From: Pseudolabrys sp.
Lineage (GTDB): Bacteria > Pseudomonadota > Alphaproteobacteria > Rhizobiales > Xanthobacteraceae
Reading direction: 5' to 3'
Assembly (NCBI GenBank): GCA_009694265.1
Contig: SHVM01000019.1
Location: forward strand, 1 to 34,261
DNA: 34,261 nucleotides
Under the pieces are notes generated by a model. The model was not told where the DNA came from. It saw only the letters and a program-made list of their open reading frames with translations, and did not search any database. Position 1 is the stretch's first letter, and the number at the start of each line of letters is the position of its first letter. The translations under genes were made by a program, and so were the position numbers. Below are positions 1 to 33,959 of this stretch, in pieces.

Positions 1-145
1 ACAAAATCGAGAATATGTTTGGTAGGCTCAAGGACTGGCGACGCGTTCATACCCGCTACGATCGATGCGCCCATACCTTTATGTCAGCAATCTGTATCGC
101 CGCAATCGTCATCTTCTGGCTATAATCAATGAGTCCTGACCCTAG
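1..145 (+). mobile_element. 3' end of an IS5-family insertion sequence (transposase C-terminus plus terminal repeat)
   Basis: From base 3 an open frame reads 40 residues to TAA at 123-125. It contains KIENMFGRLKDWRR and RYDRCAHTF and ends IVIFWL, the typical C-terminus of IS5-family (IS427-like) DDE transposases, with the catalytic Glu of the IENMFGRLKDW motif. The rest lies upstream of the window. The stretch ATGAGTCCTGACCC just after the stop looks like the terminal inverted repeat of such elements, and CTAG at 142-145 fits the preferred target of the IS427/IS870 group. The family call is recognition from motif memory; the exact element cannot be named. The boundary at 145 is inferred because homology to the neighbouring broken gene begins immediately after it. 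Confidence 0.8.
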
Positions 146-412
146 TTCGTCAACACGGAGCTCGAGAAGATGCTAAAGGAAAAGGGCATCACGGGCGTGA
201 TCGTGGTGGGGACGTTGGCGAATGGCGGGGTGATGCATACCGCTAGCGCCGCCGCGCTCAGAGGATTTAAAGTCGTCGTCCCGGTGGACGGCATGTCATC
301 CCTCAATCTTAATACACTTTATTTGGAGCAGTACACGGCGTGGCATCTGGCTAACGGGCCCGTCCTCGTCGCCAATGTGACGCTGACCAAGACCGACATG
401 ATCAAGTTCTGA
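146..412 (+). pseudogene. isochorismatase-like cysteine hydrolase, 5'-truncated by the IS element
   Basis: The frame from 146 reads FVNTELEKMLKEKGITG and continues to a normal stop at 410-412. It matches the C-terminal half of isochorismatase-family hydrolases: a GVIVVGT strand, a segment where the family's nucleophilic Cys region would sit (here NGGVMHTAS), AALRGFKVVVPVDGMSS, and a C-terminal TKTDMIKF. The family is usually about 180-230 residues; only about 88 codons remain and an in-frame TAG at 143-145 lies directly upstream at the IS junction. An ATG at 170 could start an 80-residue protein, but that would lack the N-terminal catalytic Asp and half of the fold. This is read as a gene cut by the IS insertion; the 5' part is outside the window or lost. 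Confidence 0.72.
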
Positions 413-419
413 TCTTTCG

Positions 420-440
420 CTCTCCGCCTTGCGGGGAGAG
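420..440. repeat. degenerate copy of the CTCCCCGC/GCGGGGAG palindrome
   Basis: The segment can fold with CTCTCC-GC pairing to GC-GGGGAGAG with a two-base bulge. It is a worn version of the near-perfect palindrome at 1489-1514, and the same family recurs at 14849-14872. It lies just 3' of the isochorismatase remnant and next to the duplicated gene tail at 446-560, in the same relative position as the palindrome at 1489-1514 next to the intact gene. Confidence 0.5.
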
Positions 441-445
441 GGACT

Positions 446-560
446 TCAGACCTTCCCCAACGCCCATAAAATCTTATCGGGCGTGAACGGCATATCGGTG
501 AGTGTTTTGGAGCCGAGCGGGCGCAGCGCGTCGTTGATGGCGTTCATCAAGCAAGCCGGC
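446..560 (-). pseudogene. duplicated 3' tail of a molybdenum-hydroxylase large-subunit gene
   Basis: Bases 450-560 align without gaps to 1526-1636, the 3' end of the intact large-subunit gene downstream; by eye there are 11 mismatches in 111 positions. Read on the minus strand the fragment gives PACLMNAINDALRPLG, then LTDMPFTPDKIL, ALGKV and a TGA stop at 446-448, where the intact gene has PACVMNAINDALRPLG and a TAG stop. Homology ends abruptly near 560, so only about 37 codons survive. It is either the relic of a second paralogous operon or the footprint of a recombination event that placed the dienelactone hydrolase gene between the copies. Confidence 0.8.
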
Positions 561-1521: not shown

Positions 1522-3918
1522 CTACACCTTCCCCAGCGCCCTTAAAATCTTATCCGGCGTGAACGGCATGTCGGTGAGGCCTTTCGCACCGAGCGGGCGC
1601 AGCGCGTCGTTGATGGCGTTCATCACGCAAGCCGGCGCGCCGGCGGTGCCGGCTTCGCCCGCGCCCTTGGCGCCAAGCTCGCTGTCGGCGGTGGGCGAAA
1701 CCACGTGGCCGCAGTCGATGTCGGGCATTTCCGCCGCCATCGGCACCAGATAGTCGGCCATGTTGCCGTTTAGCATCTGCCCGCGATCGTCATAGAGGCA
1801 ATGCTCGAACAGCGCGGCGCCGATGCCCTGCACCACGCCGCCACGAATTTGTTCGTCGACAAGTTGCGGATTGATGATGGTGCCGCAATCCTCGACGCAC
1901 CAATGTTTCAGGAGTTTGACAAATCCGGTATCGGTATCGACTTCCAGATAGCTCGCCTGAATGCCGTTGGTGAAGGCGAACGGCCAGGCGCGCGGCACGT
2001 AATGGCGCGTCGCCATCAGCTCGGCCTGGAAGCCGGGCGGCAGCGTGTCGGGCCGGAAATAGGCGATGCGCGCCAGCTCGTCGAGCGGCAGGCGTTCGGT
2101 GCCGTTCGCCTTGTCGACGACAATGCCGTTGCGGATGTCGAGTTCTTCCGGTTTGGCCTGCAAGATGCTGGCGGCAACGGCGAGCACATTTCCGCGCAAC
2201 GCCTTGCCGGCCTGCCAGGCCGCTTCGCCGCCAATGCCGGCGGCGCGCGAGGCCCAGGTGCCGCCGCCGTAAGGCGTGTTGTCGGTGTCGCCGGTGACGA
2301 CGCGCACTTTGTCGATCGAGACGCCGAACGAGCTGGCGACGCATTGCGCCAGCACGGCTTCGGCGCCCTGGCCCTGTTCGGTGACGCCGCTGTGCACGAC
2401 GATGGCGCCCTGCGCGTCGAGTTTCACGGTGGCGCCGTCCTGCGAACTGATCTTGGCGCCGCCGACGCCGTAGAAGGCGGCCGACGGATTGGTCACTTCG
2501 ATAAATGACGCAAAGCCAATGCCGCGATAAATTTTTTGCGCACGCAGCTTTTTCTGCTCGGCGCGTAATCCGGCGTAATTCATCATCGAGTCGAGATGGG
2601 CGAGCGACTCGTGATGCGACAGCTTCTCGAATTTGAGCCCCGAGGCCGAGGCGCACGGATAGGCGTCGTCGGCGATTAGATTGCGGCGGCGAATTTCCAG
2701 CGGGTCCATGCCGATCTTGGCCGCCGCAAGCTCGACCAGGCCTTCGGTCACGGCCACCGCGATAGGGTGACCGACCGCGCGGTATTGGCACATGACGTTC
2801 TTATTCTGGAACACCACGCGCGCCTGTGCGCGGTAGTTCGCGCAGGCGTAGGGGCCGCCGACCAGATTGACCACCTGGTTGGCCTCGATGCCGCTGGTGC
2901 GCGGATAGACCGAATAGGGGCCGATGCCGGTCAGGGCGTCGATCTCGAAAGCGGTGATGGTGCCGTCCTTGTTGACGCCAATCTTGGCCTTGACGCGATG
3001 GTCGCGGGCATGGATGTCGGTGACGAAACTCTCGATGCGGTCGGCGACGAATTTTACCGGCCGCTTGAGCAGTTTCGACAGCGCGACCGTCGCCATTTCG
3101 TCGGCGTAGGTGTGCACCTTGATGCCGAACGAGCCGCCGACATCCTTGGTCAACACGCGCACCTGTTGCTCGGCGAGATCGAGATGCTTTGCGAACAGGT
3201 TCTGCATCATGTGCGGCGCCTGCGTGCCGTGATAGACGGTCATGCGCTGCTCGCCCTCGTTCCAGTCAGCGACCACGGAGCGCGGCTCGGTGCAGACGCC
3301 GGTGTGGCGGCCGAACATGAAGGTGGTTTCCACCACGGCGTCGGATTCCGCGAAGGCTTTGTCAACCGCGCCGACATCGAGCTTGCGCTCGAAGCACAGA
3401 TTGTCGCCGAGCGACGAATGGATTACCGGCGTTTTCTTGTCGAGCGCGGTTTCCGGATCGGTGACGGCGGGCAGCGCCTCGTATTTCACGTCCACCAGCT
3501 CGCAGCCGTCCTCGGCCTCGGCGCGCGTGCGGGCGACGACGGCGCATACCGCTTCGCCCTGCCAGCAGGCGCGCTCGATCGCGATCGGGTATTGCGGGGC
3601 CGATTTCAGGCCTTTGAGATGCGTGAGCACGCCGACCCAGGGCGTCATGACCTTGGCGAGTTCCGCGCCGGTGACAACCGCGATCACGCCGAGCGATTTT
3701 TTGGTAGCGGCTGCGGTAATGGATTTGATGCGCGCGTGCGCGTGCGGCGAGCGTACGAAGGCGACATGCGCCATGCGCGGCAGCGTGACGTCGCTGATAT
3801 ATTGCCCGCGGCCTTGCGTCAGGCGTTGCAGATTTGGCCGCGGCACCGAGCGGCCGATATACGAGTTGGGCCGGTCGAGCGCGGTGAGCACGGGCGGGGA
3901 GTCGCCGGTGATTTTCAT
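1522..3918 (-). CDS. xanthine oxidase-family molybdopterin-binding large subunit
   Basis: A 798-residue large subunit of a three-part molybdenum hydroxylase, which would oxidise a C-H bond of an organic substrate and pass electrons to the [2Fe-2S] and FAD subunits encoded just upstream. Moco-binding signatures are visible: KDVGGSFGIK, GVTEQGQGAEA, and near the C-terminus GAKGAGEAGTAGAP with the catalytic Glu. The loop that reads AYXCSFR in form I CO dehydrogenase and AYRGAGR in form II enzymes reads QYRAVGHP here, so it should not be called CoxL; the substrate is unknown. The open frame extends 60 codons further upstream, but that part overlaps the small-subunit gene. ATG 3916-3918 has GGAGG eight bases upstream and an ATGA overlap with the small-subunit stop, so it is the likely start. 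There is no signal peptide; the enzyme is cytoplasmic. Confidence 0.9.
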   Translation of the reverse strand: MKITGDSPPVLTALDRPNSYIGRSVPRPNLQRLTQGRGQYISDVTLPRMAHVAFVRSPHAHARIKSITAAATKKSLGVIAVVTGAELAKVMTPWVGVLTHLKGLKSAPQYPIAIERACWQGEAVCAVVARTRAEAEDGCELVDVKYEALPAVTDPETALDKKTPVIHSSLGDNLCFERKLDVGAVDKAFAESDAVVETTFMFGRHTGVCTEPRSVVADWNEGEQRMTVYHGTQAPHMMQNLFAKHLDLAEQQVRVLTKDVGGSFGIKVHTYADEMATVALSKLLKRPVKFVADRIESFVTDIHARDHRVKAKIGVNKDGTITAFEIDALTGIGPYSVYPRTSGIEANQVVNLVGGPYACANYRAQARVVFQNKNVMCQYRAVGHPIAVAVTEGLVELAAAKIGMDPLEIRRRNLIADDAYPCASASGLKFEKLSHHESLAHLDSMMNYAGLRAEQKKLRAQKIYRGIGFASFIEVTNPSAAFYGVGGAKISSQDGATVKLDAQGAIVVHSGVTEQGQGAEAVLAQCVASSFGVSIDKVRVVTGDTDNTPYGGGTWASRAAGIGGEAAWQAGKALRGNVLAVAASILQAKPEELDIRNGIVVDKANGTERLPLDELARIAYFRPDTLPPGFQAELMATRHYVPRAWPFAFTNGIQASYLEVDTDTGFVKLLKHWCVEDCGTIINPQLVDEQIRGGVVQGIGAALFEHCLYDDRGQMLNGNMADYLVPMAAEMPDIDCGHVVSPTADSELGAKGAGEAGTAGAPACVMNAINDALRPLGAKGLTDMPFTPDKILRALGKV

Positions 3919-4415
3919 TGTTTGCCTCCCGCGCGCGCTTGCGCCACCGACTCCACCGCATCGATGATGGCGTGGTAGCCGGTGCAGCGGCAGTAGTTGC
4001 CCGACAGACGCTCGCGGATCTCGTCGCGGCTCGGCACGCCGCCACGCTTCAATAAATCCTGCGCTGCGGCGATCATGCCGGGCGTGCAATAGCCGCATTG
4101 CAAAGCGTTGCGCTGCTCGAACGCCAATTGCAGATCGGCGATCTCGCCGCTATCGGACAGCCCCTCGATGGTCTCGACCATGGCGCCGTCGCATTGCACC
4201 GCCAGCATGAGGCAGCCGCGCACGATCTCGCCATCCACGCGCACGGTGCAGGCGCCGCAGACGCCATGCTCACAGCCGACATGGCTGCCGGTCAGCCCCA
4301 GATCGTCGCGCAGGAAATCGACCAGCGTCTTGCGCGCTTCGACGCGCTCGCGCACCTGCTCGCCGTTGACGGTCAATGCAATGTCGAGGGCAAGATTGAG
4401 AGGAAGTTCGCTCAT
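3915..4415 (-). CDS. [2Fe-2S] small subunit of the molybdenum hydroxylase
   Basis: A 166-residue electron-transfer subunit with two [2Fe-2S] clusters. The plant-ferredoxin-like cluster uses C48, C53, C56 and C68 (CEHGVCGAC and GC); the C-terminal helical cluster uses C107, C110, C142 and C144 (CGYC and CRCTGYH). Spacing and length are standard for CoxS/XdhA-type subunits. A GTG one codon upstream (4418) is also possible, but the GGAGG at 4422-4426 is better spaced for ATG 4413-4415. The start overlaps the FAD-subunit stop as TGATG and the end overlaps the large-subunit start as ATGA, indicating coupled translation in the order medium-small-large. Confidence 0.92.
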   Translation of the reverse strand: MSELPLNLALDIALTVNGEQVRERVEARKTLVDFLRDDLGLTGSHVGCEHGVCGACTVRVDGEIVRGCLMLAVQCDGAMVETIEGLSDSGEIADLQLAFEQRNALQCGYCTPGMIAAAQDLLKRGGVPSRDEIRERLSGNYCRCTGYHAIIDAVESVAQARAGGKQ

Positions 4416-11808: not shown

Positions 11809-12649
11809 ATGTTTGGTGCGCGTCTTTCGGTTTCGGCCTTGGCGATGGTCGCTGCGTTCTCTACGAGCGCTGCGCGTGCCGCCGATTATTCGCTGCCACT
11901 GCCACCGCCGCAACAGCAACCGGTCTACATTTAGCAGCAGCCGCAGGTGATCGAGGAATTTTCCTCGGGCTGGTATCTGCGCGGCGATGTAGGCATCGGC
12001 ATGTCGAGTTCCTACAAGCTCGGCTACCTGCCGGCTCCGGCCAATGTCGGCAACGGTTTTGTGCTCGAGCACAATTCGCGCGGCGATCAGTTCTTCATCG
12101 GCGGCGGCATCGGCATGAATGGAACAACTGGCTGCGCTTCGACTTTACCGGCGAGTACCGCGCCAAGTCGCGCGTCTACGCCTTCGGCAGCTACCCCGGC
12201 GGCATCGACACTTACGAGGGAAACCTGAAGTCTTGGGTGTTTCTCACCAACGCCTATGTCGATCTCGGAACCTGGAATTGCTTCACGCCGTTCGTCGGCG
12301 CCGGCATTGGCGCGACACGCAATAGCTTGACCGACTTCACCGACATCAATCCGAACGGCGGGCGCGGCTTCGGGCGCAATCCAAGCGAATGGCATCTGGC
12401 CTGGGCGCTGCATGCCGGCGTCGCCTACACCGTGACCAAGAATTTAAAGATCGAGCTGGCCTACCCTATCTCAATCTTGGCTCGATCACCGACACCATCG
12501 ATTGCGTCGGTGGCTGCAGTCCGGATTCCTACAAGTTCAGCAATCTCTATTTGAACGATATCAAGATCGGCCTGCGCTGGACCTGCTGCGATACGCCGCC
12601 GTCGCCGCCGGTCTACATGCCGCCGCCGCCGCTGCGCAGCAAAGGCTAG
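11809..12649 (+). pseudogene. outer-membrane beta-barrel protein (Omp25/31-like), copy A, one stop and two frameshifts
   Basis: ATG 11809 starts a signal peptide (MFGARLSVSALAMVAAFSTSAARA) and a Pro/Gln-rich linker, then an in-frame TAG at 11932-11934. The same frame continues with EEFSSGWYLRGDVG and FFIGGGIGM. At about 12118-12120 one base is missing and the barrel continues in another frame (WNNWLRFDFTGEYRAKS, then LGTWNCFTPFVGAGIG, WHLAWALHAGVAYTV). Near 12464-12466 a second base is missing and the reading moves again to YLNLGSITDTIDC and IGLRWTCCD, ending in a Pro-rich tail with stop at 12647-12649. All parts together make a full-length surface antigen of about 280 residues. It is either decaying or affected by sequencing errors; its neighbour is a paralogue. 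Confidence 0.85.
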
Positions 12650-12650
12650 C

Positions 12651-12686
12651 GCGCATGATCCCGAAGCGTGGAAACCGATCATGCGC
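12651..12686. repeat. short GCGCATGAT...ATCATGCGC palindrome
   Basis: GCGCATGAT (12651-12659) and ATCATGCGC (12678-12686) are inverted around CCCGAAGCGTGGAAACCG. This resembles a shortened member of the GAGCATGAT repeat family at 18504-18551, with the shared CCGAA.....GTGG..ACCG core. It begins one base after the stop of outer-membrane protein copy A. Confidence 0.65.
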
Positions 12687-12813
12687 CAATAAAAGGGCTT
12701 CGCCGGCTGAGCGATGATGTGAGCGAGGCGCGGACTTGGTGAAAACGTATGTTTAGCGCCGCATTGTCTTCCTGCGGCAAGATCGAACGGAACGCAACGA
12801 AGGATTGGGTGTC

Positions 12814-13545
12814 ATGAGTTGGTTGCGGATCTTGGTCGTCTCCGGTGCGGCATTGACGGTTCTCAGCGCAAATGCGCGTGGCGCCGACGTGCCAGGCTAT
12901 CCCACGCTGCCGATGCCGCTTCCCTCGTGAAAACGGCCGCTACAGAATGTGGAGATTTTTTCCGGCTGGTATTTGCGCGGCGACATCGCCTACCGCTTTC
13001 AGCGCAGCGGAACCTCCTCGAGCGGCAACACGGCGCAGGTTCCCAACCCCAACAGCGTCAAACTCGACAACACCATGCTGGGCGGCTTCGGCGTCGGCTA
13101 TAAGGCGCAGTGGTTTCGCGTCGATCTGACCGGCGATTATGGCTGGCGCAGCAAATACGTCGCCACCACCAGCGCCGGCACCACCTTTTCCGGCAAGGTC
13201 GAAAGTTTCACGGTGATGGCCAATGGCTATTTCGATCTCGGCACCTGGGGCGGCTTCACCCCTTATGTCGGCGCCGGCATTGGCGGCGCCAATGTCATTT
13301 TCTCCGGTTATAAGAATTCGGCGGCCGTTTCGCCGATGCCATCGACTGCGGTGCCGGTCCATCGATGGAATCTGGCCTGGGCCGCCATGGCTGGCATGAG
13401 CTATAATTTTTCGCAAAATATTCTGCTTGATATCGGTTACCGCCATGTCGATATGGGCGATGTCAACGGCGGACCGAACGGCCAGTTGACGATCAAGCGC
13501 CTGACCGGCGACGAAATTCGGATCGGCTTCCGCTACCTGCTCTAA
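12814..13545 (+). pseudogene. outer-membrane beta-barrel protein (Omp25/31-like), copy B, one in-frame TGA
   Basis: ATG 12814 starts a signal peptide (LRILVVSGAALTVLSANARGA) and a Pro-rich linker ending PMPLPS, then TGA at 12928-12930. The same frame then runs without interruption to TAA at 13543-13545: KRPLQNVEIFSGWYLRGD, FTVMANGYFDLGTWGGFTPYVGAGIGGANV, WNLAWAAMAGMSYNF, and a last barrel strand IRIGFRYLL. Removing the single stop gives about 243 codons, normal for this family. Without readthrough the barrel could only begin at an internal GTG (12949) and would have no signal peptide. The stop may be a null mutation (CGA to TGA is one transition), a sequencing error, or a readthrough site; see the findings for the matching stop in copy A. 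Confidence 0.82.
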
Positions 13546-13667: not shown

Positions 13668-14840
13668 ATGAGCGCGACCAAGCCCGGCGTGCGGCCGGCC
13701 CTCCCGCACTTTTCGTCCGGCCCCTGCGCCAAGCGCCCCGGCTGGAGCCTGCAAGCCCTCACCGACGCGGTTCTCGCACGCTCGCACCGGTCCAAGATCG
13801 GCAGAGCGAAGCTCAAGCGCGCCATCGATCTCACCCGCGAAGTGCTGCAAATACCCGCCGACTATCGCATCGCCATTGTGCCGGCGTCCGACACCGGCGC
13901 GGTGGAGATGGCGTTGTGGTCGCTGCTGGGCGCTAAGCCGGTGACCATGCTGGCCTGGGAATCCTTCGGCGAAGGCTGGGTCAGCGATGTCGTCAAGGAG
14001 CTCAAGCTCAAGGACGTCACGGTACTCAAGGCGCCCTATGGCGAGCTGCCTGACTTTTCAAAAATCGACTTTGCGAGTGACGTGGTGTTCACCTGGAACG
14101 GCACCACCTCCGGCGTGTGCGTGCCGAACGGCGACTGGATCGCCGCCAAGCGCACCGGCCTCACTATTTGCGACGCCACCTCGGCGGCCTTCGCGCAAAA
14201 GCTCGATTGGCCCAAGCTCGATGCCGTCACCTTCTCCTGGCAGAAGGCGCTCGGCGGCGAGGGCGCGCATGGCATGCTCATTCTCTCACCGCGTGCGGCC
14301 GCGCGGCTGGAAAGTTACAAGCCGGCCTGGCCGCTGCCGAAACTTTTCCGCCTGACCAAAGGTGGCAAGATCAACGAAGGCATTTTCGCCGGCGAGACCA
14401 TCAACACGCCGTCGATGCTCTGCGTCGAGGACTATCTCGATACGCTCGGCTGGGCGAAATCGATCGGCGGACTGGAAGCGACGGTCGCTCGCTCGGATGC
14501 CAATGCCAAGGCCTTGGCCTCCTGGGTCGCGGGCACGCCCTGGATTGCCCATCTCGCCAAAAATGCCAATGAGCGCTCCAACACCTCAATGTGTCTGGTC
14601 GTGACCGATCCGGCGGTGACGCGGCTGCCGGCCGACGATCAGGCCGCCTTTGCCAAGACGCTGGCGAGCCTGCTGGAGAAGGAAGGCGTCGCCTACGACA
14701 TCGCCTATTACCGCGACGCGCCGCCGGGCCTGCGCATCTGGTGCGGCGCCACGGTGGAGACGCGCGACATCGAGGCGCTGACGCCCTGGCTCGATTGGGC
14801 GTTTGCGGAAGCAAAGGCCGCGCTGCCGAAGGCGGCGTGA
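13668..14840 (+). CDS. serC: phosphoserine transaminase
   Basis: A 390-residue class V aminotransferase of the alphaproteobacterial SerC type, converting 3-phosphohydroxypyruvate and glutamate to O-phosphoserine and 2-oxoglutarate in serine synthesis. It begins [20 protein letters not shown]-contact residues are in ASDTGAVE (73-80) and in CDATSAAFA, and the Schiff-base lysine is K193 in [10 protein letters not shown]. The C-terminal GLRIWCG is typical of this subgroup, which differs from the E. coli enzyme by about 30 extra residues. ATG 13668 follows GGAAGG. It is followed by serA after 70 bases, a standard operon in this order, and both are probably controlled by the leader at 13611-13667. 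Confidence 0.94.
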
Positions 14841-16547: not shown

Positions 16548-16775
16548 ATGACAAGGCTCCTGCAAAAAGCGCTCGAAGCGGTGCGTCTATTGCCGCCTGA
16601 GAATCAGGATGAAATCGCGCGCGCCATGCTTGCTTTGGCGGGCAACGATTCCGAGCCGGAAGACATCGACCCAGCCCATTTGGCGGATATTCTGGAAAGC
16701 TTGGCCCAGGCCAAGCGCGGCGAATTTGCAACCGATGCCGAGGTCGAGATCGCGTTCCGCCGTTTTGATCGATGA
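16548..16775 (+). CDS. putative antitoxin of a type II toxin-antitoxin pair
   Basis: 75 residues, all alpha-helical in appearance, beginning MTRLLQKALEAVRLLPPENQDEIARAML and ending DAEVEIAFRRFDR. This resembles small antitoxins paired with RelE/ParE toxins in Rhizobiales, where a helix rich in LP..EQ..IA is followed by an acidic linker and a C-terminal toxin-binding segment. No ribbon-helix-helix motif is obvious, so DNA binding is uncertain. A TTG ten codons upstream is also in frame, but ATG 16548 is simpler. The stop overlaps the toxin ATG (ATGA). It lies between serA and purA, an insertion in a usually compact region. Confidence 0.6.
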   Translation: MTRLLQKALEAVRLLPPENQDEIARAMLALAGNDSEPEDIDPAHLADILESLAQAKRGEFATDAEVEIAFRRFDR

Positions 16776-17064
16776 AGCTGCGTTTTACGACGCGCGCCAC
16801 CAAAAATCTCGTCGAGATCGCCGACACCTCTATGAACGCAATCCTGCTGCCGCGCGTCGTGTGTGTGCGGCCATCTATGAAGCCTTGCAAAACCTGATTT
16901 TGTTTCCTGCGGCCGGCAGACTGCAAAAGGTTGAAAGAGTGCGAAAATTGGTGACAAGCAAATACGCCTACCTGATCTATTACACCCTCGATGAAGCGGC
17001 GGATGAAATCGTGGTCCTCAATGTGAAGCACCCCGCCCGTGAGCGCGACCATGAGGATGCATGA
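16772..17064 (+). pseudogene. RelE/ParE-type toxin with a single-base frameshift
   Basis: ATG 16772 reads MKLRFTTRATKNLVEIAD, the classical ParE/RelE N-terminus. One base is then missing after GAC at 16823-16825 (a T there would give DYLYERNPAAA). In the other frame the protein continues with YERNPAAARRVCAAIYEALQ, FPAAGRLQKVERVRKLV and YLIYYTLDEAADEIVVLNVKHPAR to TGA at 17062-17064. Restoring the base gives a complete toxin of about 97 residues with its core strands and conserved Arg. As written the toxin is broken while the antitoxin is intact, a stable state for the host. A sequencing error is the main alternative. Confidence 0.72.
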
Positions 17065-27787: not shown

Positions 27788-29059
27788 GTGACGATGCACC
27801 CGACACGACGAAACTTCCTTCGCAGTTCAGCGGCAATTGCCTCCGCGACGTTGCTCCCGCTTCCGGCCCTCGCACAGGCGGCGCCCCGGGTGATCGTCGT
27901 CGGCGGCGGATTTGGCGGCGCGACCGTTGCCCGAGAGATCAAGGCAATCGATCCGAAATTCCACGTCACGCTGGTCGAATCCAGCGCGACATTCACCGCC
28001 TGCCCATTCAGCAATGCCGTCATCGGCGGCTTGCGCGATCTGAAGGCGCAGCAATTCGGTTACGACAAGGTCCGCGCCGCGGGCGTCAACGTCGTCATCG
28101 GCTCGGCGATCGGCGTGAACACAGTGGGCCGCACGGTCCGACTTACGGACGCGACGTTGCCCTATGACCGGCTGGTGCTCGCGCCTGGCATCGACATTCG
28201 CTGGGACGGCTTGCCCGGTTACAACGAAGCCGCGTCCGCGAAAATGCCGCATGCCTGGCGGGCCGGCGACCAGACCACGCTGCTGCGCAGCCAGCTCGAG
28301 GCGATGGAGGACGGCGGTCTGGTGGTCATGTCGGCGCCAGCCAATCCGTTCCGCTGCCCGCCGGGCCCATACGAGCGCGCAAGTCTGATCGCGCACTATC
28401 TCAAGACCAAGAAGCCGAAATCGAAGCTCATCGTGCTCGACGCCAAGGACCAGTTCTCCAAGCAGCGTCTGTTCCAGAACGCCTGGAAGGAGCTCTATCC
28501 AGATCACCTGGAATGGGTTTCGCTCTCGGCCGGCGGCAAGGTGACATCGGTCGATCCGGCGACCAATACGCTGACGACCGACTTCGGCAAACACGTGGCC
28601 AAGGTTGCCAACGTGATCCCGCCGCAGAAAGCCGGCCGCATCGCCGAACTTGCGGGCGTTGCCAACCAGACCGGCTGGTGTCCGATCGATCCGGTAACGT
28701 TCGAGTCGTCGCTGGTGCCCGGCATCCATGTCGTCGGCGACGCGATTATCGCCGGTGCGATGCCGAAGTCCGCCTTTAGCGCGAATGCGCAAGGCAAAGT
28801 GTGCGCCGCCGCGGTGGCGAAGCTGCTGACCGGCGCCAAGCCGCCAGAGCCAAAGCTAATCAATACCTGCTACAGTCTGGTCGCCCCCGACTACGGCATC
28901 AGCGTGGCGGGTGTTTACATTCCGGCGAAGGGAATGTTGGCGGAGGTGCAAGGCTCAGGCGGCGTCAGTCCATTGGATGCGCCACGCGACGTCCGCGCCG
29001 CCGAAGCGGCCTATGCCGAAGCCTGGTTCCGGACGATCACCAGCGAGGTCTTTGGCTGA
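27788..29059 (+). CDS. fccB: flavocytochrome c-type sulfide dehydrogenase flavoprotein
   Basis: 423 residues. It begins with a Tat signal (TRRNFLRSSAAIASATLLPLPALAQA). The FAD-binding motif is VVGGGFGGATVA. C72 in TACPFSN matches the Cys that carries covalent FAD in flavocytochrome c, and C190 (FRCPPGPYERA) and C361 (NTCYS) match the redox-active disulfide pair. It would oxidise sulfide to polysulfide or sulfur in the periplasm and pass electrons to the cytochrome encoded just before it; in Sox loci the same protein is called SoxF. AGGAGG lies five bases before GTG 27788; an ATG two codons later is the alternative. The soxX start overlaps or directly follows its end. Confidence 0.88.
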   Translation: MTMHPTRRNFLRSSAAIASATLLPLPALAQAAPRVIVVGGGFGGATVAREIKAIDPKFHVTLVESSATFTACPFSNAVIGGLRDLKAQQFGYDKVRAAGVNVVIGSAIGVNTVGRTVRLTDATLPYDRLVLAPGIDIRWDGLPGYNEAASAKMPHAWRAGDQTTLLRSQLEAMEDGGLVVMSAPANPFRCPPGPYERASLIAHYLKTKKPKSKLIVLDAKDQFSKQRLFQNAWKELYPDHLEWVSLSAGGKVTSVDPATNTLTTDFGKHVAKVANVIPPQKAGRIAELAGVANQTGWCPIDPVTFESSLVPGIHVVGDAIIAGAMPKSAFSANAQGKVCAAAVAKLLTGAKPPEPKLINTCYSLVAPDYGISVAGVYIPAKGMLAEVQGSGGVSPLDAPRDVRAAEAAYAEAWFRTITSEVFG

Positions 29060-29060
29060 C

Positions 29061-29519
29061 GTGCGCGCGAACTTTGCTTACGCGATATTGGCAGGTGCGA
29101 TCGGCATGACGGCTGCACTTGAGCAGGCGTCTGCGCAGTCCCTGCTGCGCCCCTTTCAAGTCGTTGGCGACGCCATTCCGGCTTCGCTGACCGGCGTGGC
29201 CGGCGATCCCGTTCGCGGCCGGGCCATCGTGGTGAAGCGTGAAAACACCTGCCTGCTTTGTCATTCCGGACCGTTTCCGGAGGAGCGGTTTCAGGGCGAT
29301 CTTTCGTCCGATCTGACAGGAACCGGCGCGCGCTGGACGCAAGGGCAGCTGCGGCTGCGGCTGGTCGATGCGAGCCGCGTCAATCCGGCAACGATCATGC
29401 CGTCCTATTATCGGGTCGAGGGCTTCAATCGCGTCGGGCCGGCTTGGCGCGGCAAGCCGATCCTATCGGCCGAACAGATCGAGGATGTGGTAGCCTATCT
29501 TGCAACGTTGCGTGACTAA
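29061..29519 (+). CDS. soxX: SoxX, cytochrome subunit of the SoxAX complex
   Basis: About 152 residues with a Sec signal (YAILAGAIGMTAALEQASAQ), the heme site CLLCH (C64, C67, H68) and Met113 in ATIMPSYY as the likely axial ligand, the usual SoxX pattern. With SoxA it joins thiosulfate to the SoxY carrier cysteine in the periplasm. Starts TTG 29052 and GTG 29061 are both in frame; GAGG at 29045-29048 is near both. GTG 29061 is chosen because it lies just after the fccB stop, but the nine-base longer form is possible. Operon order here is X-Y-Z-A. Confidence 0.86.
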   Translation: MRANFAYAILAGAIGMTAALEQASAQSLLRPFQVVGDAIPASLTGVAGDPVRGRAIVVKRENTCLLCHSGPFPEERFQGDLSSDLTGTGARWTQGQLRLRLVDASRVNPATIMPSYYRVEGFNRVGPAWRGKPILSAEQIEDVVAYLATLRD

Positions 29520-29528
29520 ACCAGAGCC

Positions 29529-30038
29529 ATGACCGACAAGCGCACCGAAAATCTTGCAACCCGTCGCGATGTCCTGGCGAGCGCCGGAAGCCTCGTCGGC
29601 GGCGGCCTGGTCAGCGGTTTGGGCTTGGCGACCATCTCGGTGGCGCACGCACAGGCACAGTCGACACCTGCGGCCATGGCGCTCGCGATCCACAAGATCG
29701 CCGGCGAGGCGACGGTGAAGCCGGGCAAGGTCAAACTCGACATGCCGCCGCTGAGCGAGAATGGCAATTCGGTGTCACTGACCGTCACGGTCGACAGTCC
29801 GATGACGCCGGCGAACCATGTAAAGGCCATCCACGTCGTCACAGAAAAGAATCCACAGCCCTATGTGATCAGCGTCCGGCTGGGGCCCCGCGCCGGACAA
29901 GCCAATATCTCGACCCGCATGCGGCTGTCCGATACGCAGATCGTCGTCGCGATTGCCGAATTGAGCGACGGCTCGTTCTGGTCGGATACTCGAACGGTCA
30001 TCGTCACGCTCGGCGCCTGCCTCGAGGAGCTCATCTGA
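29529..30038 (+). CDS. soxY: SoxY, sulfur carrier subunit with an atypical C-terminus
   Basis: 169 residues. A Tat signal (ATRRDVLASAGSLVGGGLVSGLG) precedes the SoxY immunoglobulin-like domain (KIAGEATVKPGKVKLDMPPLSENGNSVSLTVTVDSPM, then ADISTRMRLS-like and VVAIAELSDGSFWSDTRTVIVTLGAC). SoxY normally ends in a flexible GGCGG whose Cys carries the sulfur substrate. Here the end is LGAC164 followed by LEELI, so the carrier Cys is present but not in the Gly swinging arm. The stop shares a base with the soxZ start (TGATG). It is identified by domain and by soxZ beside it. Confidence 0.83.
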   Translation: MTDKRTENLATRRDVLASAGSLVGGGLVSGLGLATISVAHAQAQSTPAAMALAIHKIAGEATVKPGKVKLDMPPLSENGNSVSLTVTVDSPMTPANHVKAIHVVTEKNPQPYVISVRLGPRAGQANISTRMRLSDTQIVVAIAELSDGSFWSDTRTVIVTLGACLEELI

Positions 30039-30358
30039 TGGCACGCGCCTTGATCAATGTTCCGGCCAAAGCCAAACGCGGCGAGGTCATCACCATCAAG
30101 ACGCTGATCTCGCACGTCATGGAGTCGGGCTTCCGCCACAACCAGATCGGCGTCAGAATCCCGCGCGACATCATCACCTCGTTCACTTGCACTTACAACG
30201 GCGAGGAAATATTCCAGGCTGATCTCCATCCGGCCATCACCGCCAATCCATTCATCGCCTTCACCACGATCGCAACCGAGAGCGGCACGATCGCCTTTAC
30301 ATGGCGGGGAGACAACGGATTCTCGGCGGCCGAGTCGGTCAACATCACCGTCGAATGA
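30038..30358 (+). CDS. soxZ: SoxZ, partner of the SoxY carrier
   Basis: 106 residues, no signal peptide. The family pattern is clear: PAKAKRGEVITIKTLISHVMESGFR, IITSFTCTYNGEEIFQADLHPAITANPFIAF and GTIAFTWRGDNGFSA. SoxZ binds SoxY and travels with it through the Tat system. Coupled translation with soxY (TGATG) and soxA (ATGA) supports equal expression. Length is standard. Confidence 0.93.
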   Translation: MARALINVPAKAKRGEVITIKTLISHVMESGFRHNQIGVRIPRDIITSFTCTYNGEEIFQADLHPAITANPFIAFTTIATESGTIAFTWRGDNGFSAAESVNITVE

Positions 30359-31152
30359 ACGCCGTTCGCAAGCGCGCGCGATGGCTCGCACCGGCTGCCG
30401 TGCTGCTGGCCCTCGCCGCGGTGATTTCAGCGCGCGCCGAGATTCCGCTGGCGGAACGCCGCTCCGGCTACGCGGACCTCGCCCCGGACACCAAGGCGAT
30501 GCAGGACGACGACACCAGCAACCCGGGCATGCTGGCGGTGCTCGACGGCGAAGCGCTATGGAAAACCAAGGCCGGCAATGCCGGCCGTGCCTGCGCCGAC
30601 TGTCACGCCGACGCCCGCGTGAGCATGAAGGGCGTCGCCGCGCGCTATCCGGCCTTCGAGCCAACGTTGAGCCGCCCGGTCAATCTCGAACAGCGTATCA
30701 ACATCTGCCGGACGGAGCGCCAGCAGGCTCAACCCTTCGCCTCCGAAAGCAAGGACCTGCTCGCGCTGACCGCCTTTGTCGGCATGCAGTCGCGCGGACA
30801 GCCGATTGCGCCGCCGGCCGACGAGCGGTTGCGGCCGTTTCTCGACGCTGGCCGCGAGGCGTTCAGCCGCCGGCTGGGCCAGTTCAACCTGTCGTGCGGC
30901 CAATGCCACGACGACAATTGGGGCAAGCGGCTCATCGGCAATATCATCCCGCAAGCACATCCGAACGGCTATCCGCTCTACCGGCTGGAGTGGCAGAGCA
31001 TCGGCTCGCTGCAACGCCGGCTGCGCAACTGCATGATCGGCTTGCGCGCGGAGCCGTATGAATACGGCGCGCCGGAGTATGTTTCGTTGGAGCTATATCT
31101 CATGTGGCGCGCGCGCGGCCTGCCGGCCGAAACCCCGGCGGTGCGACCGTGA
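30355..31152 (+). CDS. soxA: SoxA, diheme cytochrome subunit of SoxAX
   Basis: 265 residues with a Sec signal (LAPAAVLLALAAVISARAE). Heme 1 binds at CADCH (C80, C83, H84) with C118 (NICRTER) in the place of its distal cysteine ligand; heme 2 binds at CGQCH (C181, C184, H185); the catalytic cysteine that becomes a persulfide is C226 in RRLRNCMIGLRAEP. All key residues of diheme SoxA are thus present. With SoxX it conjugates thiosulfate to SoxY. The start ATG 30355 overlaps the soxZ stop. It is the last gene of the operon; no soxB follows. Confidence 0.92.
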   Translation: MNAVRKRARWLAPAAVLLALAAVISARAEIPLAERRSGYADLAPDTKAMQDDDTSNPGMLAVLDGEALWKTKAGNAGRACADCHADARVSMKGVAARYPAFEPTLSRPVNLEQRINICRTERQQAQPFASESKDLLALTAFVGMQSRGQPIAPPADERLRPFLDAGREAFSRRLGQFNLSCGQCHDDNWGKRLIGNIIPQAHPNGYPLYRLEWQSIGSLQRRLRNCMIGLRAEPYEYGAPEYVSLELYLMWRARGLPAETPAVRP

Positions 31153-31500
31153 TGCTGCAAGCGACGCGTTGATATGGGAATTTGTAGCTATCGCCCGCTT
31201 ATGGCACTTCGCGTCATTCCGCCAAGCCGCAAAATTTGTCAGCTATTGGGTGCACAGCGGACAAGCGGCGATGCTGGCCTTGGCCAGCTAGGCCGTCAAT
31301 GACCCAGCTCGGACATATGGCCGGACATATGGGATGCCGGGGACGGCCCAAACGCCAGAATGTACTGCGCAGCCCGCCTATGGCTTACCGGGAATCCCGC
31401 CGTCTGCTATTGCCCACGCTGTTTCAGAGTTCATCTTTGGAATGTCGATTTAGAGTCGCTAGGATGGCGTGATGCCTGCGCCTGCGCCTATACTGTCGCC
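31153..31500. other. 348-base gap with repeat remnants before the nitrile hydratase genes
   Basis: No convincing gene. There is a direct repeat GGACATATGG (31311-31320 and 31323-31332) and a stretch around 31240-31290 resembling the non-coding dispersed sequence often misread as short ORFs in Bradyrhizobium-like genomes. The open frame of the alpha subunit extends to 31360, but that part is Cys-rich and without protein character. The gap could mark the place where the rest of the sox cluster was lost; that is inference. Confidence 0.5.
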
Positions 31501-32133
31501 ATGACCCACGATCACGGTGACAATCATCACCACGATCACGGCTCGGACCTCTCCGAGATGCAATTGCGCACGCGAGCGCTGGAATCGATTCTACTCGAAA
31601 AGGGCTATATCGATCCCGCGGCGCTCGACGTGCTGATCGAGACCTATGAAAAAAAGATCGGCCCGCGCAACGGCGCGCAGGTGGTGGCGAAAGCCTGGGT
31701 CGATCCGAAATTCCGCAAATGGCTATTCGAGGACGGCACCGCGGCGATCGGCTCGCTCGGCTTCGGCGGGCGCTCCGGCAATCATCTCGTCGCGCTTGAG
31801 AACACGCCGTCGGTCCACAACATGGTCGTCTGCACACTGTGCTCCTGCTATCCCTGGGCGGTGCTGGGCCTGCCGCCGCTCTGGTACAAGTCGGCGCCCT
31901 ATCGCTCGCGCACCGTCGCCGATCCGCGCGGCGTGCTGCGCGATTTCGGACTCGAATTGCCGAAAGACACCGAAATCCGCGTGTGGGATTCGACCGCCGA
32001 GCTGCGCTACCTGGTGGTGCCGATGCGCCCCGCCGGCACTGACGGCTGGAACGAGGACAAGCTCGCCGATCTCGTCACCCGCGACAGCATGATCGGCACC
32101 GGGCTGCCGAAGCAGCCGAAGGATCTGAAATGA
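31501..32133 (+). CDS. nthA: nitrile hydratase alpha subunit, cobalt type
   Basis: 210 residues. The metal site [10 protein letters not shown] (C111, C114, C116, S115) binds the non-corrin metal through two post-translationally oxidised cysteines. Thr in CTLCSC followed by Tyr marks the cobalt type; iron types read CSLCSCT. It converts nitriles to amides with the beta subunit. The N-terminus [14 protein letters not shown] has seven His in 14 residues, a probable metal-collecting tail. ATG 31501 is the start because upstream in-frame sequence is non-conserved. The stop overlaps the beta-subunit start (ATGA). Confidence 0.94.
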
Positions 32134-32789
32134 ACGGCGCCGCGGACATGGGCGGGATGCATGGCTTCGGGCCGGTCGTGCCGGAGCCGAACGAGCCGGT
32201 GTTTCACGCCGACTGGGAAAAGACTTCGTTCGCGCTCAACATGGTGACCGGCGTCGCCAAGCTTTGGAATCTGGACGCTTTCCGATTTAAGCGCGAGAGT
32301 ATCCCGCCGCCGCAATATCTCAATCTCAGCTACTACGGCCTGTGGACTGTCACGCTCGAACACATGATGCTCGAATACGGCATCGCCACGCCGGAGGAAA
32401 TCGCGGCCGGGCATGCAATTGCGCCGGTGAAGAAGGCGGCGCGGACGGTAACCGCGGACGACATGACAAACATGGTGCGCTGCGGCTCGCCCTATAATCG
32501 GCCCGCGCCCGCGCCCGCACTGTTCAAGGTTGGCGACAAGGTGCGCGCCAAAAATATCCATCCGAAGACGCATACAAGGCTGCCGCGTTACGCGCGTGGC
32601 CATGTCGGCGAAGTCGTGCGCATCGTCGGCTGCCACGTTTTTCCCGACAGTAATGCCAGCAATGCCGGCGAGGATCCGCACTGGCTCTACACCGTGCGCT
32701 TCGACGGCCGCGAATTGTGGGGAGAGGATTCCGACCCGATGGTGCGGGTCTGCATCGAGGCCTGGGAGCCGTATCTGGAGCGATTGTAA
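32130..32789 (+). CDS. nthB: nitrile hydratase beta subunit
   Basis: 219 residues. The start [16 protein letters not shown] is the family signature; the helical N-terminal domain includes [15 protein letters not shown] and [17 protein letters not shown], and the C-terminal SH3-like barrel has [46 protein letters not shown] and [11 protein letters not shown]. Arg residues in the [10 protein letters not shown] region contact the oxidised cysteines of the alpha subunit. It is coupled to nthA by a 4-base overlap and followed by a palindromic repeat before the accessory gene. Confidence 0.95.
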
Positions 32790-32791
32790 CT

Positions 32792-32894
32792 GTCTTTCCG
32801 GGACGCTGCGAAGCAGCGAACCCGGAATCCAGACGAAAGCTCCGCATATGTATCTGGATTCCGGGTCTGGCCCTTCGGGTCGTCCCGGAATGAC
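32792..32894. repeat. Hyphomicrobiales-type palindromic repeat, second copy
   Basis: The element has the same ends and inner blocks as 6192-6333: TTTCCGGGACGC, CCCGGAATCCAG, then CTGGATTCCGGGTC and CCCGGAATGAC. It is about 40 bases shorter. It sits two bases after the nthB stop and 12 bases before the accessory gene, so it splits the nitrile hydratase operon and may reduce expression of the downstream part. Confidence 0.85.
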
Positions 32895-32906
32895 GAAGGA
32901 ATTAAG

Positions 32907-33293
32907 ATGATCGACAAAACCGCAGCCCGCCGCGCCATCGAGCAGGTGCCAAGCATCCCGCGCGACGCCGACGGGCCGGTGTTCCGCGAGCCGTGGGAAG
33001 CGCAGGCCTTCGCCATGGCGCTGGCGCTGCACGAGCGCGGTTTGTTCACCTGGACCGAATGGGCGGCGGCACTTTCAACCGAGATCAAGCGCGCGCAGGC
33101 GGCCGGTGATCCCGACACCGGCGAGACCTATTATTCACACTGGCTCACCGCGCTAGAAAAACTGGTGGAGGACAAAGGCGTGACGACGCAAGCAACCTTG
33201 CGTCGCTATTGTGACGCATGGGACCACGCTTGCGACCGCACACCGCACGGCCAGCCGATCGAATTGCGGGCGGACGATTTTCGGTCAAGCTGA
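32907..33293 (+). CDS. nitrile hydratase accessory (activator/cobalt-transfer) protein
   Basis: 128 residues related to the N-terminal domain of nitrile hydratase beta subunits: PVFREPWEAQAFAMALALHERGLFTWTEWAAALSTEI and YYSHWLTALEKLVEDKGV are the recognisable blocks. Proteins of this kind (P14K/NhlE-type) help insert cobalt into the alpha subunit, by exchange of alpha subunits between complexes in well-studied cases. ATG 32907 lies just beyond the palindromic repeat. It is followed after 39 bases by the HupE-type permease gene. Confidence 0.88.
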   Translation: MIDKTAARRAIEQVPSIPRDADGPVFREPWEAQAFAMALALHERGLFTWTEWAAALSTEIKRAQAAGDPDTGETYYSHWLTALEKLVEDKGVTTQATLRRYCDAWDHACDRTPHGQPIELRADDFRSS

Positions 33294-33332
33294 ACCGGAA
33301 AGGCTATTCTGCAGGTCTTGGAGGAGTTTGTC

Positions 33333-33959
33333 GTGAACAAAAAGACACTGATTGTCGGGCTAATTCTAGCGTCCATCGCGCTAATGGCCGATCCGGCCTT
33401 TGCCCATCACGTCATGCGCGGCCGCATACCGGTGACCTTCGTGGACGGCTTGTTGTCTGGGCTTGGCCATCCCGTCATCGGGCTCGATCATTTCGCGGCG
33501 GTGGTGGCGGTCGGCTGCCTCGCGGCAGCGCATCGAGCCGGCCCCGCGCTCGCCATCGGCTTCGTACTGGCAATGATCACCGGCGTTGCCGTTCATGTGC
33601 CCGGCACCACGGTGCCGGGCGCTGAAATCATGGTGGCGCTTTCGGTAATTATTCTTGGCGCAATGTTGTTGCGCAAGCGTCAAATGGCCGCGGGCGCCGC
33701 GTTTGGCTTGTTCATCGCTGTCGGGCTCATCCACGGCTATGTGCTGGGTGAATCGATCTACGGCGCTGAGGCCGCGCCGTTGACCGCCTATTTCATCGGA
33801 CTTGCTGTGATTCAGAGCGCGGTAGCGCTGGCCGCCTTATTTGCGACGCGTGCGGTGGCGCAACGGCAAGCCGATGTTCTGACCTTGCGGCTAGTCGGCG
33901 CAGGTATCACCGGCATCGGGCTCGCCGTACTGATGCAGCAGGTGATTCCTGCCGTCTGA
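33333..33959 (+). CDS. hupE: HupE/UreJ-family metal permease
   Basis: 208 residues with a signal peptide (MNKKTLIVGLILASIALMADPAFA) and about six transmembrane helices. The family motif GHPVIGLDHFAAVVAVG (H46, P47, D52, H53) and HGYVLGES are the metal-binding segments. HupE/UreJ proteins bring nickel or cobalt across the inner membrane. Position next to a cobalt-type nitrile hydratase suggests cobalt supply, a role often held by the unrelated NhlF permease. GTG 33333 is the start, with GGAGGAG six bases upstream; a TTG five codons earlier would include that ribosome site. Confidence 0.88.
   Translation: MNKKTLIVGLILASIALMADPAFAHHVMRGRIPVTFVDGLLSGLGHPVIGLDHFAAVVAVGCLAAAHRAGPALAIGFVLAMITGVAVHVPGTTVPGAEIMVALSVIILGAMLLRKRQMAAGAAFGLFIAVGLIHGYVLGESIYGAEAAPLTAYFIGLAVIQSAVALAALFATRAVAQRQADVLTLRLVGAGITGIGLAVLMQQVIPAV

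Follow-up and report, generated by a model that had tools for sequence, protein, structure and literature searches.

The tandem copies A and B

The window analysed here, the whole 34,261-nucleotide stretch of Pseudolabrys sp. DNA (genome G000), carries on its plus strand two tandem genes, copy A and copy B, each of which encodes a signal peptide, a Pro/Gln-rich linker, and an outer-membrane barrel. The pair is flanked upstream by glmM and downstream by a 390-residue frame at positions 13668-14840, which has no Pfam match and which we take to encode an aminotransferase. Copy A (11809-12649) starts with the ATG at 11809 and contains an in-frame TAG at 11932-11934, within the linker and 11 codons before the motif GWYLRGD. 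In copy B (12814-13545), which starts with the ATG at 12814, the linker is interrupted by an in-frame TGA at 12928-12930, and again 11 codons separate the stop from GWYLRGD. An earlier examination of the letters of this DNA (referred to here as the sequence-only reading) had reported both stops and their equal distance from GWYLRGD, and its coordinates are confirmed.

Beyond the stops, the two copies differ. After its TGA the copy B frame is open, as the sequence-only reading had also claimed, as far as the TAA at 13543-13545, leaving an uninterrupted barrel at 12949-13542. Copy B aligns with its G008 orthologue in a single frame (59% identity across query residues 6-236, a stretch that includes one stop), and within the barrel (62% identity) the frame is shared throughout. 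A pair of compensating slips at approximately 13320-13360 was considered and rejected, because the G008 orthologue runs in the same frame there. Copy A had been described as carrying a single stop, a description that overlooked two further frame slips in the barrel. The gene matches intact orthologues successively in frames 3, 2, and 1, which places the first frame change at about 12109-12126 and the second at about 12437-12470 (both positions are approximate); the best pieces have 73% and 65% identity to copy A of G062. Copy A is thus broken three times.

Several other features of the window may be mentioned. A small gene at 16548-16775 precedes a ParE-like gene at 16772-17064, which is broken by a frame slip at approximately 16772-16831 and whose 3' portion aligns with PF05016 starting at profile position 21. 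The left edge of the window (1-560) contains gene remnants: on the minus strand, approximately 448-547 is near-identical to the end of a CoxL-like protein encoded at 1522-4098, and a plus-strand fragment is, by its look, presumably the end of a cysteine hydrolase. Sulfur oxidation genes, encoding a flavocytochrome c sulfide dehydrogenase, SoxY, SoxZ, and a SoxA/TsdA cytochrome, occupy 27788-33959 and adjoin genes for a nitrile hydratase and a HupE-type transporter.

Distribution and breakage of the pair

The A-B tandem occurs widely across the genus. In a sample of 43 genomes, copy A could be assessed in 36 and copy B in 31, both counts including G000. (Left out of the count for A were G015, G021, and G061, in which a contig end cuts the copy; G009, which gave no match; and G063, G064, and G066, in which the stretches examined contain no gene, apart from a segment in G063 that matches a portion of an A protein at 30%.) Copy A is intact in 31 of the 36 and broken in five (G000, G002, G005, G023, and G024); copy B is intact in 29 of the 31 and broken in two (G000 and G002). 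The lesions of the broken copies are unlike one another. In addition to the TAG and two slips of copy A and the TGA of copy B in G000, there is one frame slip in the barrel region of each copy in G002 (locus L073), a TGA within the barrel of copy A in G023, and a combination of deletions and a slip in copy A of G024. Copy A of G005 (locus L047) has a TAA in the linker, three codons before WYLRGD, followed by a barrel that is open to its end. This stop occupies a linker position other than that of the G000 stops, and the gene, which comes from a different species, has the same layout as copy B of G000. Among the other assessable B copies, a linker stop is found in 0 of 30. Six genomes (G003, G018, G019, G020, G024, and G034) have copy A without copy B, giving one match each and no B at its place; three of the six are drafts that are 81 to 93% complete, and the missing B could partly be a gap. 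A separate scan of 12 loci placed the best named matches to copy B (42 to 48% identity) in three metagenome genomes, two labelled Pseudorhodoplanes and one labelled Rhodoplanes.

A survey of the wider family gives a similar but coarser view. The A profile matched 197 of 248 genomes, and stops were flagged for the best-scoring 150 of these matches, a set that does not include badly broken copies such as copy A of G000. Six of the 150 were flagged with a stop. Two of these stops are internal (the G005 linker stop and a stop in the barrel of G209); the other four, in G123, G255, G138, and G153, were rejected as internal stops since the sequences show natural gene ends. The flags understate breakage, because an unflagged match, G080, is broken by a slip. 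In the corresponding search with the B profile, the profile extends past most of the stops flagged in the match listing, which suggests that these are natural ends, and only the G000 row has two stops.

Constraint on the barrels

Despite the stop, copy B retains 42 of the 43 residues that do not vary across 26 intact relatives. Copy A differs at three of 47 invariant columns, two of which are doubtful because they fall at a piece end or in a tail alignment; for comparison, 23 intact genes differ at 0 to 4 of 50 to 54 invariant columns, mostly at 0 or 1. In three codon fits, each using three taxa, omega on the copy B branch was 0.28, 0.16, and 0.26, versus 0.09, 0.15, and 0.14 elsewhere. The copy B value is higher in all three fits, and in none is the difference significant (2dlnL of 1.01, 0.01, and 0.62); the branches are saturated, which makes this a weak test in which only a long-standing relaxation would be visible. 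For copy A of G005, omega was 0.13 against a background of 0.16 with one set of relatives (2dlnL 0.35) and 0.19 against 0.10 with another (2dlnL 3.23, below the usual 3.84).

The absence of detectable relaxation, together with the retention of invariant residues, argues that any decay is recent. The lesions are therefore young, or are partly errors. The sequence-only reading had named scattered, unrelated lesions among orthologues, in combination with relaxed dN/dS, as the pattern that would speak against it. The scattered lesions are indeed present; relaxed dN/dS was not detected.

Possible sequence or assembly error

The near-intact state of the A and B residues raises the question of error. 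Variable surface genes from a mixture of strains assemble badly, and some or all of the lesions might then be absent from the cell. The source would make this plausible: the window is a single contig from a draft assembly, perhaps of metagenomic origin, that totals 2.49 Mb over 119 contigs and is 91% complete, and G000 is the sole genome of its species among those compared. (At 2.49 Mb, G000 is also smaller than all other listed genomes of the genus that are at least 90% complete, which range from 3.0 to 5.6 Mb; this may reflect genome reduction.) Against error stands the placement of the lesions, four of which fall within 1,574 of approximately 30,300 coding bases, an arrangement with a probability of 7e-6 if lesions are randomly placed. 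This value uses a hand-made gene list that counted the ParE-like frame as intact; counting its slip raises the total to five lesions, of which the pair has four. Pfam matches were obtained for 20 neighbours in further scans and for three of four neighbours in a first scan; the scanned neighbours were picked as open frames, and these matches show gene content and do not test every gene.

Two essential control genes point the same way. Of the 43 genus genomes, 39 gave a match to purA and 41 to glmM; the listed matches to either gene contained no in-frame stop, and both genes are intact in G000. (In G034 the purA gene falls into two frames, and several of the matches to glmM are shortened or come in two pieces.) Stops arising from sequencing error thus look rare in these drafts, with the proviso that the controls miss some of the broken cases: G002 has neither a purA nor a glmM match, and G023 has only a partial glmM. 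On balance, error seems an unlikely source of the lesions.

Position and origin of the linker stops

The sequence-only reading held that the two stops lie at exactly the same place. This is correct when codons are counted back, ungapped, from GWYLRGD. The homology of the column is soft, however, because orthologous linkers differ in length, with alignment gaps in this stretch. The proposed origins of the stops fare less well. Descent of the copy B TGA from CGA is unsupported: by the same ungapped count, the codons at this site in five B orthologues are TAC (G008), GAA (G021), GAC (G005), GAT (G031), and TAT (G022), none of which is one step from TGA. Descent of the copy A TAG from CAG is possible and unproven, given that two A orthologues have ATC (G031) and CAC (G022) at the site. 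(In G031, the neighbouring next column has TAT.)

How surprising is the shared position? The chance of hitting one given codon of copy B is 1/243, or 0.0041. The linker accounts for 27 of the 243 codons and for 8% of the hazard of a stop arising in one step, and in six intact relatives its share of the stop hazard is 7 to 15%. Predicted in advance as a single event, the coincidence would be improbable; it was, however, spotted post hoc. Across the genus, four in-frame stops were found in the pair, and three of them lie in the linker, which has about a tenth of the codons. This count could be taken to suggest that clean off-mutants have been selected, for example by phage or predators, with pre-barrel stops favoured because a partial barrel is toxic. 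The numbers are small, however, and were picked post hoc; when the two G000 stops that define the finding are removed, the linker has one of two stops, or one of three if the barrel stop of G209 is added. Furthermore, the slips or deletions that break G002 and G024 lie within the barrel. The stop counts do not establish a preference for the linker, and selection for clean off-mutants is considered improbable.

Possible readthrough and recoding

The sequence-only reading had also raised the idea that selected low-level readthrough limits the amount of the protein; in copy B, the TGA would then reduce the barrel protein without abolishing it. The open, conserved barrel of copy B fits this idea, as does copy A of G005, which shares the layout of a linker stop followed by an open barrel. 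In addition, the accessible part of a published survey (PMC7918605) describes bacterial in-frame stops as often lying in genes with dN/dS below 1 and as mostly short-lived. However, a stop that serves functional readthrough is expected to be conserved among orthologues, and the linker is free of stops in all 30 of the other B copies that could be assessed. Nor does G000 offer an obvious decoding apparatus. The best SelB match in this 91% complete genome scores 184.6 bits (cut-off 242.25), and no anticodon that reads a stop codon is present among its 38 tRNA-like hits (ARAGORN), from which some expected tRNAs are missing. Selenocysteine insertion and suppressor decoding were consequently rejected, as far as the incomplete G000 allows. 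(A second tRNA-Tyr with anticodon gta, locus L148 at G000:C109:11405-11477, scores 35 bits versus 51 for the other one.) Copy A cannot operate by readthrough, because its two downstream slips preclude an intact barrel, unless those slips are sequence errors. Selected readthrough of copy B is accordingly regarded as very improbable.

A broader form of this idea treats the linker as a recurrent nonsense switch point, at which a stop turns the barrel off while the coding sequence is kept, so that reversal of the stop may restore the barrel or readthrough may supply a small amount of it. Linker stops of all three kinds, TAG, TGA, and TAA, do occur in three genes of two genomes (G000 and G005), and if such stops were leaky or reversible they would provide a simple nonsense-based tuning of surface proteins. 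The likelihood of such a switch nevertheless seems remote.

Probable gene decay

Taken together, these results argue that copies A and B probably represent the independent, recent loss of two dispensable surface-barrel genes, with the shared stop position a coincidence within a short, variable linker. Measured against intact orthologues, copy A has three disabling lesions and copy B has one, as expected for pseudogenes. Among the readings offered previously, chance decay fits best, because the pair has been broken repeatedly, copy B is repeatedly missing, and the lesions are unlike one another, whereas readthrough fails for copy A. Another dispensable gene in this region has decayed as well, since the ParE-like gene is also frame-shifted.

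The course of events may be pictured as follows. Both genes would encode surface barrel proteins that are dispensable to the genus. In copy A, a nonsense change and two small indels that shift the frame would have destroyed the gene; in copy B, independently, a single nonsense change would have sufficed. In each case translation would stop in the linker, yielding only a short exported peptide and no barrel. The equal distance from stop to barrel would most likely be a coincidence in a short and variable segment; a mild bias may contribute, as a stop before the barrel would leave a harmless peptide and a stop inside it a misfolding partial barrel. Ordinary gene decay, with no new kind of gene control, is thus the most likely explanation. 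As decay the case is unexceptional, and it adds an example of the recurrent loss of a widespread surface-barrel tandem in one alphaproteobacterial genus.

Comparison with known systems

The barrel of copy B is like the small barrels described by several Pfam families. It matches PF13505 (OMP_b-brl) over residues 4-195 of 198 with 43.4 bits (cut-off 28.7), and also scores above the curated cut-offs of PF02462 (Opacity) and PF01617 (Surface_Ag_2). A piece of copy A (12126-12464) scores 17.9 bits against PF13505, which on its own falls below the same cut-off of 28.7. The difference from these families is that copies A and B are interrupted. Relation to the adhesin Adr is only distant: against NCBIfam NF052636 (cut-off 210), copy B scores 53.5 bits and the copy A piece 30.8, and four intact relatives score 40.0 to 81.3. 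A search of titles and abstract openings, with partial coverage of subscription journals, found nothing on the A-B pair or on linker stops in barrel genes of this type.

Copies A and B are presumably related to the Omp25/Omp31 family. For the Brucella members of that family, the part of a published study that was available describes a truncating mutation of omp31 in Brucella ovis (PMC2677664). The two cases are alike in that a point mutation has broken a surface barrel gene of an alphaproteobacterium; the organism and the lesions are different.

That bacterial in-frame stops may be transient and tolerated is a notion already published, according to the accessible part of Belinky et al. 2021 (PMC7918605). 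Even readthrough at this locus would consequently fall within a known class of phenomena. The stops treated there resemble those of copy B and of copy A in G005 in having a conserved frame beyond the stop. The difference, going by the same part of that work, is that it deals on a large scale with stops common to at least two species, whereas the copy B stop is present in one genome only.
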